Shown one piece after another: positions 7,573 to 15,268 of a DNA stretch of 64,000 nt. Location: contig NZ_MCVI01000001.1 of NCBI RefSeq assembly GCF_002873135.1, positions 129,565 through 193,564 of the forward strand, written 5' to 3'. A program made the position numbers and the translations under genes. The notes beneath the pieces are model-generated. The model saw only the letters and a program-made list of their open reading frames with translations, was not told the origin of the DNA and did not search any database. This DNA comes from Shewanella sp. 10N.286.48.A6. GTDB taxonomy: Bacteria > Pseudomonadota > Gammaproteobacteria > Enterobacterales > Shewanellaceae. The stretch's first letter is position 1. The number at the start of each line of letters is the position of its first letter.

Positions 7573-8898
7573 ATGCAAACAACCACTAACTCACTAGGTC
7601 CTAAAACGACCGTCAATCAAATGCTGAATCAAGGCATTCGTACATTGGGTAAAAACCTAATGTGGTTGGCGAGTGCTCAGTTTAGTGGCCGTATTGTGAG
7701 ATTAGCAGCTAGCGTGATAACCGCGAGATTACTGACACCAGAAATCTTCGGTCAAGTGGCCATTACCTTAACCCTATTTGAATTAATTTGTACTCCAACT
7801 CGCCGCATTACTTCAGCAGCACTTATTCGCATGAATGATACCGAGTTTAAAGACAACTTAGCCAGCGCCAATGTGATTAACTTCGGCGCCTGCCTTATTG
7901 CCTTTGCACTAATGAGTTTAATCAGCTTACCACTGGCTTATTACTACCAAGACAGCCAACTTGTTCTGCCTATCTTGTTTGTTGCCAGTAGTTATTTATT
8001 ACTGCCATTTGGCATGTTGTACGCCACGGTGAACTTACGTAACAACAATATGCGTAAAGTGGCTAGCGCCAACCTTTGGCAAACCGTGGGCGATGGCATC
8101 TTAACTGCAATACTTGCACTGAGCGGCTTTGGCTTGTGGGCCATTATTATCCCTAAAGTGGTGATGGTATTGGTCTGGATTTACCTGCATAAAAATGGCA
8201 ATCCGTTACCGACTTTTACCCAAAAAGCATCCGTTAAAAATGTTAAATCAATCCTTAGCTTTAGCATTCCGGTGAGCTCAAGCGATTTGATTAACACCCT
8301 AAGACAAAGCATTGATTATCTGGTCATTGGTTACTTCATGGGGGTTGAGGCTCTGGGGGTTTACTTCTTTGCTTACAACGTCAGCTTGGGGATCAGTTTA
8401 GGGCTAGTTCAAAGCTTTGGTACCGCGTTTTACTCGCACCTTTGTAGCGACGATAAAATCGCGAGCAATGTAGCAAATAGCCAACAAGTTGCTAAGCAGA
8501 AGTTTCGTCACAGTGTGATGGCCATTAGCGCGATTACCGCCCCTATCATCATCTTACAAACAACACTTGCGCCCCTTTACGTGCCATTTGTATACGGTGA
8601 GCAATGGTTAACAACCGATGCCATTTCAGTGTTCATCTTCTTATGTTTAAGCGGCCTTGTTCGCCCAATGGCAGAAGCCGCCAGTCAGTTATTACTTGCC
8701 CACGGCCATAGCCGTTTAAATTTCAAACTCAATTTAGCTATCACCGCTTTGTTAACCCTGGTGATCAGTGTTGCAAGTCAGTTCAGCTTAAGCACAGTCG
8801 CACTGAGTGTGATGGTGACTTACTTAATTATTATGCCTTGGCTTTGCTGGTACAGCAGCCGTATCTCATTTAATCAACCAACTGTTACAAACAGTTAA
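7573..8898 (+). CDS. Wzx-type lipid-linked oligosaccharide flippase (SypK-like)
   Basis: This 441-residue protein is hydrophobic throughout, with about twelve to fourteen membrane helices. The N-terminal part has the Polysacc_synt signature SGRIVRLAASVITARLLTPE followed by FGQVAITLTLFEL. Such MOP-superfamily proteins move undecaprenyl-diphosphate-linked repeat units across the inner membrane. AAGGG lies eight bases ahead of the ATG. It starts a two-gene unit with the GT2 gene 10 bases downstream. Confidence 0.87.
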   Translation: MQTTTNSLGPKTTVNQMLNQGIRTLGKNLMWLASAQFSGRIVRLAASVITARLLTPEIFGQVAITLTLFELICTPTRRITSAALIRMNDTEFKDNLASANVINFGACLIAFALMSLISLPLAYYYQDSQLVLPILFVASSYLLLPFGMLYATVNLRNNNMRKVASANLWQTVGDGILTAILALSGFGLWAIIIPKVVMVLVWIYLHKNGNPLPTFTQKASVKNVKSILSFSIPVSSSDLINTLRQSIDYLVIGYFMGVEALGVYFFAYNVSLGISLGLVQSFGTAFYSHLCSDDKIASNVANSQQVAKQKFRHSVMAISAITAPIIILQTTLAPLYVPFVYGEQWLTTDAISVFIFLCLSGLVRPMAEAASQLLLAHGHSRLNFKLNLAITALLTLVISVASQFSLSTVALSVMVTYLIIMPWLCWYSSRISFNQPTVTNS

Positions 8899-8908
8899 GG
8901 AAAACATT

Positions 8909-9967
8909 ATGTCTCCTAGAATCTCAGTAGTAATGCCAGTTTATAACGTTGAACAGTTTGTTAAATCGGCTATTGAATCAGTATTAAAGCAAACCTATGA
9001 CAACTTCGAGCTATTGATTGTTGATGATCGCGGTGATGATAATAGCATGCAAATATGTAAACAATTTATCGGCGATCCAAGAGTACATATCATCCGTCAT
9101 CAAACCAACAAAGGTTTAGCAGCGGCAAGAAATACCGGCATCCGTCATTCATTAGGTGAGTTTGTGGCCTTTATTGATTCTGATGATTTATGGCACCCTG
9201 AAAAACTACAGCGCCATGTGGTGCATTTAGATAAGAACCCCAACGTTGGATTAAGTTTTTCACGCTCAAGCTTTATTGATTATCAAGGTAAGTTTATCGA
9301 TTTTTATCAAATGCCAAAACTTTTTGACATTGATGCTGCCCATTTATTATGCCGTAACCCTGTAGGAAATGGCTCAGCGCCGGTTATTCGCCGCAGCACC
9401 TTAAACGACATACGCTTTCAGCCAGCAAGCAGTAAAAATCGCCACAGCTGCTACTTTGATGAGAACTTCCGCCAATCAGAAGATATTGAATGTTGGTTAC
9501 GTATTGCTGCAACCACCTCTTGGGAAATTGAAGGGCTACCAGAGCCATTAACTTACTACCGCCTTAATCATGGTGGCTTATCAGCAAACCTTGAGAAGCA
9601 ATATGCCTCATGGGAGAAAATGATTGAAAAAGCCCGTGGTTTTGCTCCTAAATTATTAAAGCAACATGAAGAGTCTGCTCGCGGGTTCCAATTACGGTAC
9701 TTATCAAGACAAGCTATTCGAATCGGTGATGGCAGCGCTGCTGTAAAGCTGTTTAACCGCGCGATGAAAGCATCACCTAGCATTATAAGAAGTGAAACCT
9801 TTAAAACCGTCACCACCATGATTGCCGCATATGCGCAGTGGATAATACCTGCTTGGGGTTATATCGCTATCGAAGCTGTTGGGCAAAAATTTATCGGCAT
9901 TTTACAAAAACTACGTATTTCACGTGACGGCGTTTCAAGTGAATTTATGCAACAAAGTAAATTGTAA
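8909..9967 (+). CDS. Family 2 glycosyltransferase
   Basis: This 352-residue protein has a GT-A fold domain in its first 230 residues. It starts RISVVMPVYNVEQFVKSAIE, has VDD at 38-40, and carries the metal-binding FIDSDD at 89-93. It is an inverting, cytoplasmic enzyme expected to add a sugar to the lipid-linked repeat unit. The donor cannot be read from sequence. The last 100 residues are alpha-helical with a weakly hydrophobic stretch (about 290-312) that may touch the membrane. It is the only stand-alone glycosyltransferase of this locus. AAGGA precedes the start. Confidence 0.87.
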   Translation: MSPRISVVMPVYNVEQFVKSAIESVLKQTYDNFELLIVDDRGDDNSMQICKQFIGDPRVHIIRHQTNKGLAAARNTGIRHSLGEFVAFIDSDDLWHPEKLQRHVVHLDKNPNVGLSFSRSSFIDYQGKFIDFYQMPKLFDIDAAHLLCRNPVGNGSAPVIRRSTLNDIRFQPASSKNRHSCYFDENFRQSEDIECWLRIAATTSWEIEGLPEPLTYYRLNHGGLSANLEKQYASWEKMIEKARGFAPKLLKQHEESARGFQLRYLSRQAIRIGDGSAAVKLFNRAMKASPSIIRSETFKTVTTMIAAYAQWIIPAWGYIAIEAVGQKFIGILQKLRISRDGVSSEFMQQSKL

Positions 9968-10150: not shown

Positions 10151-10196
10151 TAACAAGGTATCGAACGATTAATCATTGCATTTTATGAGGTACGGT

Positions 10197-12125
10197 ATGG
10201 ACGCTCATCAATCAGTAAACACTCAAACCCAGTCGCAGGCATCAGACTCAACCTTATTGTCAGTCCGCGCTTTTGATTGCTTTATGGCGATAATATTACT
10301 GGTTTTAATGCTACCAATAATGGTGTTTAAAACCTTAATACTTGCCTGCTCAAAGCAAGCTATTTTTGATGCTATCTACATTCATGTATCAGATCGCCAA
10401 GTTGCGCTGTATCAATTTAGCCAAGGGCGCTTTTCAAGACTGCCGTTTTTATTGGGGATCATTAAAGGCGATATTGGTTTTTTAGGCAGTGCCTTTGAGT
10501 ATTGCGTGTTTGAGCCAAGTTCAACCAATAGCCGCCCTGGTGTTTTTTCCATTGAAAAAATGCAGCGCAATATGGGGATTGAACATATCAATAATGCAGC
10601 CCCTGAATTTAGCAGCTTATTTCATTACCTAATTAACCTAAGTAAGTGCCTAATTTGCCGTTTAATTGTTGTCTCTACTGAGCTGAATTACCCTGAGCAA
10701 TTCAACTTACTTGGAGTCAATATTGATAATAATAAAATGGCTGACAGTGTTGAAAAACTGGTTAAAGCAGCGCAGCACTCTGTGGGCGATGAAACCCAAC
10801 ATTTTTCCTTTGTAAATGCAGACTGCTTGAACATTGCCTCAACAGACAGCTCTTATAAAAATATTCTCAATCAATGCCAGCAAGTTTTTGCTGATGGTAG
10901 CGGTATTCGTATTGCTTGCCAGCTACACGGTATCGGCCTTAAAGACAATGTGAATGGTACTGATATGCTGCCGTTACTGTGTCAACGCGCCAGTGAGCAA
11001 GGGATAAAACTGTTTTTCCTGGGGGCAACTGCTGGCACCACTGAAGAGGCGGCAACCAACCTTAAACAGCAGTACCCTGATTTACAGATAGTGGGCTGTC
11101 ATCATGGTTATTTAAATGAAAGCAACCAACAAGAGGTGATTGAGCAAATCAATCAATCAGGGGCGCAGCTACTACTCGTCGGCATGGGGGCGTCAAAGCA
11201 AGAACATTGGATTGAGCAACATAAATATCAATTAAAGGTGGGCGCAGCCGTTGGGGTTGGTGGACTGTTTGATTACTTCGCCAATAATGTTTCTCGTGCA
11301 CCTATTGCTGTCAGACAAGTAGGAATGGAATGGATATGGCGCTTAGCACAAGAGCCACAACGCATGTGGAAACGCTACGTGGTGGGTAACCCGCTATTTT
11401 TAGCGCGAGTGTTAAAGCAAAAACAACAGCTAAATTTGGCCTCAGCCACCAGCCAAGCTAAGGCTCAGCCGCTATCAGCTATTTCAAATCACAACCGTCA
11501 TTGGTACTTCTTTAAAATCAAATGTGGCCAATTTGCAAAACGCACATTCGATATTGTTGCTGCTAGCATTTTGCTAATTTTATTAGCGCCATTATTTGCG
11601 TTAACCGCATTAAGTATCCGAATTGAGTCGAAAGGGGCGATCTTTTTTTCACAAACACGCAGTGGCAAAAATAACCAAGCATTCACCATGTGGAAGTTTC
11701 GCTCAATGTATATTGATGCCGAGCAAAGGTTAGAAAAAATCAAAGAAAACAATGAAATGCAAGGTGGCGTCATTTTCAAAATGAAGCAAGATCCGCGTAT
11801 TACCACCATAGGAAAACTTATCCGCAAAGCTTCAATCGATGAGTTACCACAACTTTGGAACGTGTTAATTGGTGATATGTCACTAGTTGGCCCAAGACCT
11901 GCACTACCTAATGAAGTAAGCCAATATCAGTTAAGCGACCGTCGCAGATTAGGGGTAAAACCTGGCATCACCTGCATTTGGCAAGTTAGCGGACGCTCAG
12001 ATATTCCTTTTGATAAGCAAGTAGAACTGGACATTGATTACATCTACAAACAATCGCTTAAAGAAGATATCACACTGTTATTAAAAACTATTCCAGCTGT
12101 ACTTTTGGCGCGTGGCGCCTACTAG
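10197..12125 (+). CDS. Fusion: degenerate PGT-like domain + WecG/TagA transferase + WcaJ-type initiating sugar-phosphate transferase
   Basis: Three parts can be seen in 642 residues. Residues 22-130 resemble a shortened bacterial sugar transferase (helix RAFDCFMAIILLVLMLP, then LPFLLGIIKGDIGFLG), but S80-R81 stand where the catalytic Asp-Glu should be. Residues 170-400 are a WecG/TagA/CpsF domain with ADG (232-234), NGTD (253-256) and GMGASKQEHW (329-338), which adds N-acetylmannosaminyl-type sugars to a lipid-linked first sugar. Residues 447-642 are a complete WcaJ-like phosphoglycosyl transferase with D548-E549, LPQLWN and GPRP, which starts repeat units on undecaprenyl phosphate. I chose ATG 10197 because TGAGG lies six bases ahead; an ATG at 10185 lacks this. 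The first two steps of synthesis may thus sit in one chain at the inner membrane. Confidence 0.85.
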   Translation: MDAHQSVNTQTQSQASDSTLLSVRAFDCFMAIILLVLMLPIMVFKTLILACSKQAIFDAIYIHVSDRQVALYQFSQGRFSRLPFLLGIIKGDIGFLGSAFEYCVFEPSSTNSRPGVFSIEKMQRNMGIEHINNAAPEFSSLFHYLINLSKCLICRLIVVSTELNYPEQFNLLGVNIDNNKMADSVEKLVKAAQHSVGDETQHFSFVNADCLNIASTDSSYKNILNQCQQVFADGSGIRIACQLHGIGLKDNVNGTDMLPLLCQRASEQGIKLFFLGATAGTTEEAATNLKQQYPDLQIVGCHHGYLNESNQQEVIEQINQSGAQLLLVGMGASKQEHWIEQHKYQLKVGAAVGVGGLFDYFANNVSRAPIAVRQVGMEWIWRLAQEPQRMWKRYVVGNPLFLARVLKQKQQLNLASATSQAKAQPLSAISNHNRHWYFFKIKCGQFAKRTFDIVAASILLILLAPLFALTALSIRIESKGAIFFSQTRSGKNNQAFTMWKFRSMYIDAEQRLEKIKENNEMQGGVIFKMKQDPRITTIGKLIRKASIDELPQLWNVLIGDMSLVGPRPALPNEVSQYQLSDRRRLGVKPGITCIWQVSGRSDIPFDKQVELDIDYIYKQSLKEDITLLLKTIPAVLLARGAY

Positions 12126-12133
12126 GAGACCTT

Positions 12134-13528
12134 ATGCAAGCTATCGTATTTGCCAACCGCAATGGAAATGAATTAGCGCCGCTAAACCAGCAATATTGCC
12201 CAGCGCTATTACCGCTAGCAAACAAGCCTCTAGTGGAGTACACCCTAGAAGATTTAGCGGATGCAGGCATAAGCCAAGTCAAAATGGTGATTTGCGCTGA
12301 TGCAGAACAACTGGAAGCCCAAATTGGTAATGGCCAGCAATGGGGTTTGAATATTGAGTATTTTTTAAGTAAGCCACAAGAAGCAGTTAATAGCGTGCTT
12401 GCCAGAATGCATATCGATAACACCACCCAGGCATTAGTGGTTCGAGGCGATATATTAAGAAGCCCTTGCCTAGAGCGTTTTGTGGCATTTTCCAGCATGG
12501 TACCCACCAAATTTGTTCACGCAACAATGGAGCAGCGTAACCCTGGAATGATGATGCTACCCGCTGGCTGGAAACACAATCAATTGCTTAACTGGCCACT
12601 GCAAACCACAGCGGTAGATCATGATGATAGTATCGCCCAAGTGCTTCATGGTCAGTGCTTTTATTTAGACAGCTTATCAGGCTATGTGGCAGCCACTGAA
12701 TTTGTGATTTGTAGCAAAATATTTAGCAGTAAAGGTCGCAAACACCAAACAGGCTCAAGCAACCAAAGCCTTATGGTTGAAGCCCAATGCGAGCTGCCGC
12801 AATTAGATAGCGCCGAGGTGTATGGCGCAATTGGTGAATACACCAAAGTGTCTCATAAAGCTCAATTAACTGATGCGGTGGTGGTGGGAAAATACTGCTT
12901 TATTGAAGATAGCCAGATCCAAAACAGTATTATTTTGCCTAATACCTATGTTGGGCCGCAATTATCGGTTAACAATAAAATCATTTCCCAAGACTTGATG
13001 ATAGACCCACAAACCAGCAGTTGGAGCAAAATTGAAGATCAAAGTTTAATCGCCACATCGACCCAAAGCGCCAGTAATTACCACACGCTAATGCAGCGTG
13101 GACTAATGATGATGTTTTATATCTTACTGTCACCACTATTACTGACCTTATTTGTGGGCGCATTGATCATCAAGCCCAATAAACCACTGCTGACTGAAAC
13201 CGTGATTAACAACCACAATAAAGCCGTTAAAGCGCACAAGTTTAATTTTAACAACAAGTTTTTTTCACTACTGCCACAACTTTGGTTAGCAGCCAAAGGC
13301 GATTTAGCCCTATTTGGCGCATCCAGTAAACATAAGCATTTGCATGACAGCAACACCACTTATGGCGTCTATGGTCCGGTGCAATTGAACTTTGACCAGC
13401 ACACCCCTGATGAAGAAATACAAATGGTTGAAATGGAATTTGCCCAAGCGCAAAAGCCACTTTACCTAGCAAACATATTGCAGCAAAAGTTTCACAGCAA
13501 ACAAGCTGACATCATCATTAAAAGCTAA
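12134..13528 (+). CDS. Apparent double pseudoenzyme: nucleotidyltransferase-like + degenerate PGT-like protein
   Basis: This is a 464-residue protein. Residues 1-230 resemble sugar-1-phosphate nucleotidyltransferases (CPALLPLANKPLVEYTLEDL), but the loop that should read GxGTRL is ANRNGNEL (residues 7-14), so the Arg is replaced by Glu. The Lys expected in the PK motif is also absent. Residues 228-290 look like left-handed beta-helix repeats, as in GlmU/GMPP-like C-termini. Residues 321-456 have a membrane helix and the pattern FFSLLPQLWLAAKGDLALFG of bacterial sugar transferases, but S378-L379 replace the catalytic Asp-Glu. I infer a non-catalytic partner or scaffold for the fusion enzyme just upstream (8 bases). 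The domain likenesses are by eye. Confidence 0.7.
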   Translation: MQAIVFANRNGNELAPLNQQYCPALLPLANKPLVEYTLEDLADAGISQVKMVICADAEQLEAQIGNGQQWGLNIEYFLSKPQEAVNSVLARMHIDNTTQALVVRGDILRSPCLERFVAFSSMVPTKFVHATMEQRNPGMMMLPAGWKHNQLLNWPLQTTAVDHDDSIAQVLHGQCFYLDSLSGYVAATEFVICSKIFSSKGRKHQTGSSNQSLMVEAQCELPQLDSAEVYGAIGEYTKVSHKAQLTDAVVVGKYCFIEDSQIQNSIILPNTYVGPQLSVNNKIISQDLMIDPQTSSWSKIEDQSLIATSTQSASNYHTLMQRGLMMMFYILLSPLLLTLFVGALIIKPNKPLLTETVINNHNKAVKAHKFNFNNKFFSLLPQLWLAAKGDLALFGASSKHKHLHDSNTTYGVYGPVQLNFDQHTPDEEIQMVEMEFAQAQKPLYLANILQQKFHSKQADIIIKS

Positions 13529-13582: not shown

Positions 13583-13987
13583 ATGAAAACCATCATTACA
13601 TACGGTACATTTGATTTATTCCACTTTGGCCATGTGAGATTATTTCAGCGCCTAAGCAAAATGTGCGATCAACTGATTGTTGGGGTTTCTACCGATGAAT
13701 TTAATGCCCTAAAAGGCAAGGCAGCTTTCTTTAGCTACCAGCAACGGGTAGAAATTGTGGCGGCTTGTAAATATGTATCAAAGGTCATTCCTGAGCATAA
13801 CTGGCAGCAAAAATCAGCTGATGTTAGCCGTTTTGATGTTGATATTTTTGCCATCGGCGATGATTGGCAAGGTGAATTTGATTTCTTAAAAAGCCAGTGC
13901 GAAGTCATGTACCTCACCCGTACCGACGATATTTCAACCACTGAGATTAAAAATAACCTCGCGGTTAAATCTGTTAATGCGGCCTAA
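13583..13987 (+). CDS. tagD: Glycerol-3-phosphate cytidylyltransferase, TagD-like
   Basis: This 134-residue protein matches TagD in length and motifs: nucleotide-binding HFGH at 14-17 within GTFDLFHFGH, GDDW near residue 92, and RTDDISTTEIK (RTxxISTT) near the end. The enzyme makes CDP-glycerol from glycerol 3-phosphate and CTP in the cytosol. The TagB-like transferase gene next door would use the product. AGGA lies ahead of the ATG. The symbol follows the Bacillus enzyme; other names are used in Gram-negative capsule loci. Confidence 0.9.
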   Translation: MKTIITYGTFDLFHFGHVRLFQRLSKMCDQLIVGVSTDEFNALKGKAAFFSYQQRVEIVAACKYVSKVIPEHNWQQKSADVSRFDVDIFAIGDDWQGEFDFLKSQCEVMYLTRTDDISTTEIKNNLAVKSVNAA

Positions 13988-14050
13988 GCTTATTAGCAGT
14001 TTAGTGCTAAACTTTGTATTTAAAGGAATTTACAGTCAAGGAGACATTGC

Positions 14051-15268
14051 ATGAGCCAATTTATTGCCAATAGCATCAAATATGTCATGACTCAAAGCGT
14101 ATATTTTTTATCTGGCTTAACGCCAAGAACGCGCAAAGCAGTGATGGGGTGTTATAAAAATAAATTTGCCGATAATAGCAAATACCTGTTTTTACATTGG
14201 CAGCGCACAAAAACGATCCGCGCGATTTGGATAAGTGGCGATGGCGATGTTATCAGCGCATTAAACCAACAAGGCTATGAGGCGTATCACCGCTGGAGCG
14301 CCAAAGGGATTTATCATGCGTTAACCGCTGAGTTTTATTTCTATACTAGTTATATTGGTGATATTAATCAGTATTTTGCTAAAGGTGCCACCAAGGTTAA
14401 TTTATGGCATGGCTCGCCGCTAAAACGTATTGAGTATGATATTAACAACGGCCCCTTATTAACGATTTATCACCCTAAAAGCCTGAGCGAAAAGCTTAAC
14501 TCTGCAAGTTTATACCACCAGCAAAAAGTAAAGCCTGATCATATGATTGCCCCCAGTGATTTAGTGGCCAACCTTTTTGCCAGCGCCTTTAACATCAACC
14601 TTAACCAAATGCTCAATTGCGGTAATCCGCGCACTGATTATTACAGCCACTACCCCGAATCAAATTCCTTAGCTGATGAACTTAAGCAAATTAATCACGC
14701 TGACAGTATTATTCTTTATGCCCCGTCATGGCGTGACGCCTCTGCCCTTGCTGAAAAACAATCGAATCCTTATTTGCAAGCATTTGATTTTGAGTTGTTA
14801 TCGGCTTATTTAGTTGCTAATAAGCAGCTATTTTTATTACGGCTTCACCCTAATGAAGCCCAACTTGGCAATGATATATCCAATTACCCTAACATTATTA
14901 ATATCAGTGATTGGCAAGATACCTATGAAATTATTAATGAGGTTGATCTATTAATTACCGATTATTCGTCTTTGTATATCGATATGCTGCAAAGCCAAGC
15001 GGATATTGTGTTTTATCAATTTGATCAGCAGCAATATAGTACTGACAGCCGCCAATGCTATGACTATGCAGCGTCTATTCCTGCTGCGGGTAGGGTGATA
15101 ACTGAATTTAGCCAACTTATGGCTTACCTTGCTACGTCGTTGGATAAAAACGATGCTAGTCAGCAAGCTGAGCATAAAAAAAATAGAGCTGAGTTATCTC
15201 AGCTCTATTGGCAATATCAACATATCAATGTGTTTGATTGTTTGGATGAATTTGTTAAGGCTAAATAA
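14051..15268 (+). CDS. CDP-glycerol glycerophosphotransferase, TagB/TagF family
   Basis: This 405-residue protein carries the family motifs in order: NLWHGSPLKRI (117-127, catalytic His120), YAPSWRD (223-229), RLHP (264-267) and LLITDYSSLYID (300-311). An amphipathic N-terminus suits a peripheral membrane enzyme. The family moves glycerol phosphate from CDP-glycerol to a sugar lipid (TagB, one unit) or extends a chain (TagF). Length near 400 fits TagB-like single addition better than the larger TagF. It follows tagD by 63 bases and ends the locus. Its 3' end contains the terminator hairpin of the opposing helicase gene. Confidence 0.87.
   Translation: MSQFIANSIKYVMTQSVYFLSGLTPRTRKAVMGCYKNKFADNSKYLFLHWQRTKTIRAIWISGDGDVISALNQQGYEAYHRWSAKGIYHALTAEFYFYTSYIGDINQYFAKGATKVNLWHGSPLKRIEYDINNGPLLTIYHPKSLSEKLNSASLYHQQKVKPDHMIAPSDLVANLFASAFNINLNQMLNCGNPRTDYYSHYPESNSLADELKQINHADSIILYAPSWRDASALAEKQSNPYLQAFDFELLSAYLVANKQLFLLRLHPNEAQLGNDISNYPNIINISDWQDTYEIINEVDLLITDYSSLYIDMLQSQADIVFYQFDQQQYSTDSRQCYDYAASIPAAGRVITEFSQLMAYLATSLDKNDASQQAEHKKNRAELSQLYWQYQHINVFDCLDEFVKAK
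15176..15209 (-). terminator. Rho-independent terminator of the SNF2 gene, inside the TagB-like coding sequence
   Basis: A perfect 12-bp stem (15182-15193 with 15198-15209, loop TTAT) is followed on the minus strand by a run of eight T. It lies about 100 bases past the helicase stop codon and within the last 30 codons of the convergent glycerophosphotransferase gene. Confidence 0.8.

Follow-up and report, generated by a model that had tools for sequence, protein, structure and literature searches.

The gene at positions 12134 to 13528 (forward strand) of the 64,000-nucleotide stretch of Shewanella DNA analyzed here, hereafter the window, encodes a 464-residue protein that belongs to a conserved family of pseudoenzymes under purifying selection. 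Its N-terminal half is a pseudo-nucleotidyltransferase and its C-terminal half a pseudo-phosphoglycosyl transferase (PGT; the term refers throughout to the monotopic enzymes), with a left-handed β-helix between them. Because both pathway folds of the protein lack catalytic residues, a membrane helix is predicted in it, and its constant neighbor carries GT26 and active PGT domains, we favor, by a modest balance of probability, its being a non-catalytic, membrane-anchored accessory subunit of a PGT-GT26 initiation complex that acts as scaffold and/or nucleotide-sugar sensor. Sensing in particular we grade below the accessory-subunit reading, and the physical complex, membrane insertion, ligand binding, and direction of regulation that go with it are what we infer.

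The open reading frame starts at ATG, and its layout is supported by Pfam matches, a structural model, and alignments of 63 Shewanella rows and 48 other loci. Pfam finds NTP_transferase at residues 3 to 119 (E 5.7e-10), within a pseudo-nucleotidyltransferase domain of about residues 1 to 225 (12134 to 12808, +), and the hexapeptide family LbH_EIF2B at residues 231 to 309 (12824 to 13060, +; E 2.2e-6), the latter with 28.1 bits and thus below the curated cut-off of 54. Across 27 family members, NTP_transferase is matched in all 27 and the β-helix family in 26 at E ≤0.01. The remaining domain, the pseudo-PGT, spans about residues 313 to 450 (13070 to 13483, +). An AlphaFold2 model built from a 27-row alignment (mean pLDDT 86.6) contains a nucleotidyltransferase-like domain, β-helix strands, a helix-break-helix (residues 319-331 and 333-346), and a small α/β domain. 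Its top Foldseek matches are tlr0611, VTC1, the GMPPA/GMPPB complex, and subunits of eIF2B, and those to GMPP, eIF2B, and tlr0611 support the N-terminal assignment; the 50 matches listed include no PGT. The sequence-only reading that drew attention to this gene recognized both halves and overlooked the β-helix that separates them. The closest named record that we found is from Shewanella sp. UCD-KL21, with 95% identity across the full protein.

In alignments with RmlA, GGSGTRL falls on NRNGNEL, and the lysine of SKQLLP falls on Pro23 of CPALLP. Residues of the GGSGTRL region and the PK lysine are catalytic in RmlA, and the nucleotidyltransferase signature residues contact phosphate. ANRNGNEL (residues 7-14; 12152 to 12175, +) thus takes the place of the GxGTRL signature, and Pro23 (12200 to 12202, +) stands opposite the catalytic lysine. 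No GTR within the first 25 residues and no lysine at position 23 occurs in any of the 63 Shewanella and 48 other rows; in Shewanella, position 23 is Pro in 57, Ala in 5, and Ser in 1. The substitutions are themselves conserved, in the pattern ADRxGxEL. Arg9 and Glu13 are each present in 63 of 63 aligned Shewanella rows and in 46 and 41, respectively, of the 48 loci outside the genus. Asp106, opposite the Gly-Asp of RmlA, is also kept, in 63/63 Shewanella rows and 46/48 other loci, which leaves room for some activity. Asp179, assigned by eye as the second metal aspartate, is Asp in 50 of 63 Shewanella rows and Asp in 20 and Glu in 20 of the 48 elsewhere; Trp154 is placed by eye, unconfirmed, at the position of the RmlA EKP lysine. 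A direct comparison with active nucleotidyltransferases covered residues 5 to 118 only, the motif filter keeping 4 of 26 loci. Together with the Pfam match, these alignments and homologue rows bear out the proposal that the N-terminal half is like a sugar nucleotidyltransferase that has lost GxGTRL and the PK lysine.

Evidence for the C-terminal fold comes from family profiles, which are required because the PGT is invisible to a Pfam scan of the single protein: the whole protein returns none, and the window domain alone gives a marginal Bac_transf match (E 0.043). A profile of 27 C-terminal domains searched against all PDB sequences yielded seven matches up to E 10, every one a PGT, including PglC (E 5e-7) and WbaP (E 0.0025). 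Individually, 23 of the 27 domains match Bac_transf at E ≤0.1, the best at 6.9e-10. Aligned by hhalign to the active PGT encoded in this operon, the domain family gave a probability of 95.2 (E 2.6e-8), against 0.1 to 4.3 for 20 column shuffles, 1.2 for the reversed template, and 0.3 for GT26; with the membrane helix removed, the value was still 89.4.

The Asp-Glu dyad of PglC aligns in this profile with the residues "ar" directly before LPQL, and the window protein has Ser378-Leu379 at the position of the dyad (13265 to 13270, +), as hhalign and the homologue rows also place it. Relative to active PGTs, some 40 residues immediately before the dyad are absent as well. Asp-Glu occurs at this position in none of the 63 Shewanella rows (one of them gapped there) and in none of the 48 other loci (two of them without the domain). 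Position 378 in Shewanella is Ala in 34, Ser in 26, Lys in 1, and Arg in 1; outside the genus, it is Arg in 42, Ala in 4, and absent in 2, and position 379 is Tyr in 24, His in 13, Lys in 5, another residue in four, and absent in 2. The suggestion that the C-terminal half has a PGT fold with Ser-Leu for the dyad therefore stands. The predicted re-entrant membrane helix (13088 to 13171, +) breaks in the model at Ser333-Pro334, and Pro is found at position 334 in 84 of 111 family rows. According to PMC6133551, a Ser-Pro motif makes the PglC helix re-entrant, and a branched residue followed by Pro is suggested to serve too. Residues 319-331/333-346 would, as predicted in the model, form the helix-break-helix that marks PGTs.

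The gene is present in 65 of 129 Shewanella genomes. Two copies, L096 (genome G049) and L097 (genome G074), are omitted from the 63-row table. Read by eye, the G049 copy, re-fetched as L123, lacks both motifs; the G074 copy (L097:5898-7490) has an interrupted frame, 233 residues followed by another frame, as a result of decay or sequencing error, and its separate pieces likewise lack both motifs. L001-L003, which come from named contigs of the same kind, were left out of the counts. Beyond Shewanella, orthologues occur in other families and orders within the class and on an Azospirillum plasmid; in the rest of the phylum, there is one divergent relative, G780. Four targeted searches were positive in 17/40, 19/151, 17/42, and 2/75 genomes, partial matches included. 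Earlier sparse tallies outside Shewanella are lower bounds, with four to five candidates scored per genome, and most matches of one broad earlier search were ordinary nucleotidyltransferases over residues 1-125. The L240 copy is highly divergent, with uncertain alignment in the N-terminal columns. A Christiangramia match (L004) was rejected as a relative, as it falls in a separate hexapeptide acyltransferase-like gene. The Azospirillum orthologue (L121:8001-8927) consists of pseudo-nucleotidyltransferase and β-helix without the pseudo-PGT and adjoins a pseudoPGT-GT26 gene, an active PGT, and a GT2 gene; the pseudo-PGT is missing from L239 too, and this domain is thus not always needed.

Ratios of dN/dS are about 0.14 for the window and G087, 0.05 for L037/L038, and 0.13 for L044/L045; in two more pairs, synonymous sites were saturated. 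By domain, in order, the window and G087 give about 0.19, 0.02, and 0.20. Catalytic residues missing across homologues together with these low ratios argue for a conserved pseudoenzyme family, not decay. The outcomes that had been named as counting against the sequence-only reading were unrelated folds and close homologues with intact sites; we looked for both and found neither, and the missing residues proved consistently missing in the 63 Shewanella rows and, where the domains exist, in the 48 other loci.

Immediately upstream lies the gene for a protein of pseudoPGT-GT26-active PGT architecture (10176 to 12125, +), delimited by its open reading frame, Pfam, hhalign, and PDB profiles. This is the active PGT that the sequence-only reading had correctly placed there, having overlooked a second dead PGT at the N terminus of the same protein. 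The length of 642 residues given for this fusion needs correction: the open reading frame has 649 codons from TTG, and 642 fits an internal ATG. The GT26 (WecG/TagA) domain (10884 to 11378, +) matches at E 1.5e-60 and has Foldseek similarity to TagA; the active PGT domain (11538 to 12104, +; Bac_transf E 1.3e-67 for the protein) carries its dyad at Asp555-Glu556 (11838 to 11843), and Asp-Glu is present there in 63 of 63 Shewanella rows. The model of this protein is poor across much of the active PGT (block means 26-75).

Its N-terminal 150 residues or so are PGT-like and lack the Asp-Glu dyad, the dead domain itself covering residues 26 to 168 (10251 to 10679, +). Searched against the PDB, a profile built from 27 of these domains matches PGTs and nothing else (PglC at E 1.9e-13), 26 of the 27 match Bac_transf at E ≤0.1, and hhalign gives 98.6, against values up to 2.5 for shuffles, 4.1 for the reversed template, and 0.1 for GT26. 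Asp-Glu is found in none of the 63 Shewanella rows. In 27 non-Shewanella domains of this type, the GPR of the PRP block is retained (P in 24, R in 27), and Arg or Lys occupies the lost Asp position in 22. A basic residue is usual at that position in both dead PGT types among the non-Shewanella copies (L127, L201-L240). In 69 chosen rows, both types are missing the same roughly 40-residue stretch. This shared gap would fit a single inactivation of both pseudo-PGTs, a point on which the alignments are only suggestive; with the basic residue at the lost Asp position, it would fit one inactivation followed by specialization.

In all 63 Shewanella loci examined, the next gene upstream is the one for GT26-PGT (62 called directly; in L090, the open reading frame is over-extended). 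A genus-wide search with a profile for the N-terminal pseudo-PGT gave the identical 65 of 129 Shewanella genomes, neither gene ever occurring alone. Both pseudo-PGT genes are adjacent in one operon, so this agreement in 65 of 65 genomes does not amount to 65 independent events; with the adjacency, it supports the proposal that the 464-residue protein partners the active PGT without being catalytic itself. In other families, the usual order is pseudoPGT-GT26, active PGT, and the orthologue of the 464-residue protein, often with overlapping reading frames; matches to nps or pgt with E above 1e-5 were discarded in the scan that showed this order. Upstream sequence of more than 3.5 kb is available for 42 loci outside Shewanella; of these, 28 have an active PGT within 2.5 kb, 28 have GT26, and 26 have pseudoPGT-GT26. 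The other 14 of the 42 have no active PGT within reach, which counts against the accessory-subunit reading. All 30 active PGTs found across the 48 non-Shewanella loci have Asp-Glu. When 16 genomes were re-searched with the upstream protein as query, G578, G684, and G1237 had a full pseudoPGT-GT26-PGT fusion elsewhere in the genome (E 2.5e-236 or better), unlinked to the gene. The same re-search gave no pseudoPGT-GT26 match in G1250, G1251, G1255, and G1269 (PSE), where PGTs and GT26 of varying quality are present, no GT26-PGT match in G1086, and a generic PGT only in G1052. These genomes, like the copies without the pseudo-PGT and the retained Asp106, also speak against the accessory-subunit reading.

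Other neighbors point to a polysaccharide locus. A Wzx-type flippase gene (7573 to 8898, +) and a GT2 glycosyltransferase gene (8909 to 9967, +), both identified by Pfam, lie upstream in 62 and 60 of the 63 Shewanella loci, respectively. Downstream are genes for a glycerol-3-phosphate cytidylyltransferase (TagD; 13583 to 13987, +; TIGR01518 above cut-off), found in 49 of 63, and a CDP-glycerol glycerophosphotransferase (TagF/TagB-like; 14051 to 15268, +; E 1.3e-48), found in 62 of 63. These TagD-type and TagF/TagB-type genes (13583-15268, +) adjoin a TagA-family GT26 in a Gram-negative organism, and the polysaccharide of the locus may carry glycerol-phosphate in the style of teichoic acids. 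A STAS-domain gene (1177 to 1572, +) heads the export genes; within the stretches read, a STAS gene is upstream in 11 of 63 related loci. Pfam identified no sugar nucleotidyltransferase among the operon genes scanned in the window; in place of an active paralogue of the kind that GMPPA has, the conserved neighbor is a PGT-GT26.

As an accessory subunit, the protein would serve the initiation of a Wzx/Wzy-type polysaccharide. Its C-terminal pseudo-PGT would put the re-entrant helix into the inner leaflet and dock beside the active PGT, and the pseudo-PGT of the neighboring protein would anchor GT26 at the membrane. The nucleotidyltransferase/β-helix part, resembling GMPPA and eIF2B epsilon, might oligomerize and/or bind a nucleotide-sugar, and it could thereby scaffold or tune sugar-phosphate transfer, perhaps reporting NDP-sugar supply. 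A bolder version, possible though doubtful, is a widespread Proteobacterial initiation complex with three PGT folds of which one is catalytic: one dead copy would carry GT26 to the membrane, and the other a dead nucleotidyltransferase/β-helix that would gauge the supply of nucleotide-sugar and gate the active PGT accordingly, as a bacterial counterpart of GMPPA acting at the first step committed to the membrane.

Some of the same evidence could describe a pure membrane scaffold, in which pseudo-PGT and nucleotidyltransferase/β-helix hold GT26, PGT, and later enzymes together without ligand sensing. The pairing of two dead PGT domains with a single active one, the helix-break-helix geometry, and the loss of phosphate-contact residues from the nucleotidyltransferase signature are all in keeping with it. 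However, Arg9, Asp106, and most of the RGD block (outside L240-like copies) are fixed over a large divergence, beyond the needs of a spacer, and Azospirillum retains the nucleotidyltransferase/β-helix without the pseudo-PGT; we regard this explanation as unlikely, if worth keeping in view. The conservation of ADRxGxEL and Asp106 could be read as the mark of a changed but active enzyme, whose altered site catalyzes another reaction, for example through Asp106 or through the Arg that replaces the lost Asp in 42 of the 46 copies from outside Shewanella in which the domain is present. Such an enzyme would have lost both nucleophile/phosphate sites and the 40 or so residues before the dyad, and its dyad position varies even within Shewanella, from Ala and Ser to single cases of Lys and Arg, so that we give this reading rather little weight.

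An acyltransferase, with the hexapeptide domain modifying sugars and the remainder serving as anchor, would account for the hexapeptide-type matches in 22 to 26 of 27 members, yet the helix is short and of the non-enzymatic GMPP/eIF2B type. We rejected activity of this kind, which now seems very improbable, because the 27-row alignment holds no invariant or nearly invariant His. Least credible of all is that two enzymes have decayed sporadically or that the gene is a pseudogene: the interrupted frame in G074 is one genome, whereas identical losses recur over many families at low dN/dS, and on these grounds it was rejected.

A search of open-license PMC papers for a pseudo-PGT, a catalytically inactive PGT, or an inactive priming enzyme found no paper. 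Dead paralogues acting as regulators are already known, as are PGT fusions; what is new, as far as could be seen in that literature, is a PGT-GT26 module with dead PGT domains among its conserved parts. How nucleotide-sugars and undecaprenyl phosphate are rationed among competing polysaccharides at the PGT step is described as poorly understood in parts of PMC12802240, which gives one answer in the form of a response regulator. A conserved subunit of dead PGT and dead nucleotidyltransferase beside one defined active PGT would offer a second, more direct handle on this rationing: a dead two-fold membrane protein kept by Shewanella and many other bacteria next to initiation enzymes suggests a regulator or scaffold of the first step. 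The family also carries a warning for annotation, as such genes could easily be named sugar nucleotidyltransferase or sugar transferase, though neither site is intact.

Among known systems, GMPPA is described in PMC11228364 as a paralogue that is non-catalytic, binds GDP-mannose, and regulates GMPPB. The 464-residue protein shares its nucleotidyltransferase and β-helix layout, with a Foldseek match to 7d72, and differs in that the proposed regulated partner is PGT-GT26 and not a nucleotidyltransferase, in its membrane PGT-fold tail, and in its other substitutions. The epsilon and gamma subunits of eIF2B likewise combine pseudo-nucleotidyltransferase and left-handed β-helix and provide the best β-helix Pfam match as well as Foldseek matches, but eIF2B is a cytosolic translation factor with no PGT domain. 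With PglC (small), WbaP (large), and the Bi-PGTs, the C-terminal domain shares a predicted re-entrant helix and the LPQL and G-rich blocks, and PGTs are its sole sequence relatives in the PDB by the 27-domain profile up to E 10; unlike catalytic PGTs, it has neither the Asp-Glu dyad nor the roughly 40 residues ahead of it. PMC10942596 describes WbaP as a homodimer and the Bi-PGTs as a class in which a functional domain is fused to a catalytic PGT. By that definition, the 464-residue protein, whose PGT part is dead, falls outside the class, and the upstream GT26-PGT fusion falls within it. In Myxococcus xanthus, contact with phosphorylated EpsW (EpsW~P) activates the PGT EpsZ, and EpsW~P is suggested to stabilize the EpsZ dimer (PMC12802240); here too a non-catalytic protein is proposed to act on an initiating PGT, although EpsW is an unrelated, phosphorylation-dependent response regulator. 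Finally, the locus resembles the teichoic-acid genes TagA/TagD/TagF in having GT26, TagD-type, and TagF-type genes side by side, and differs from them in being of the Wzx/Wzy type with a monotopic PGT.
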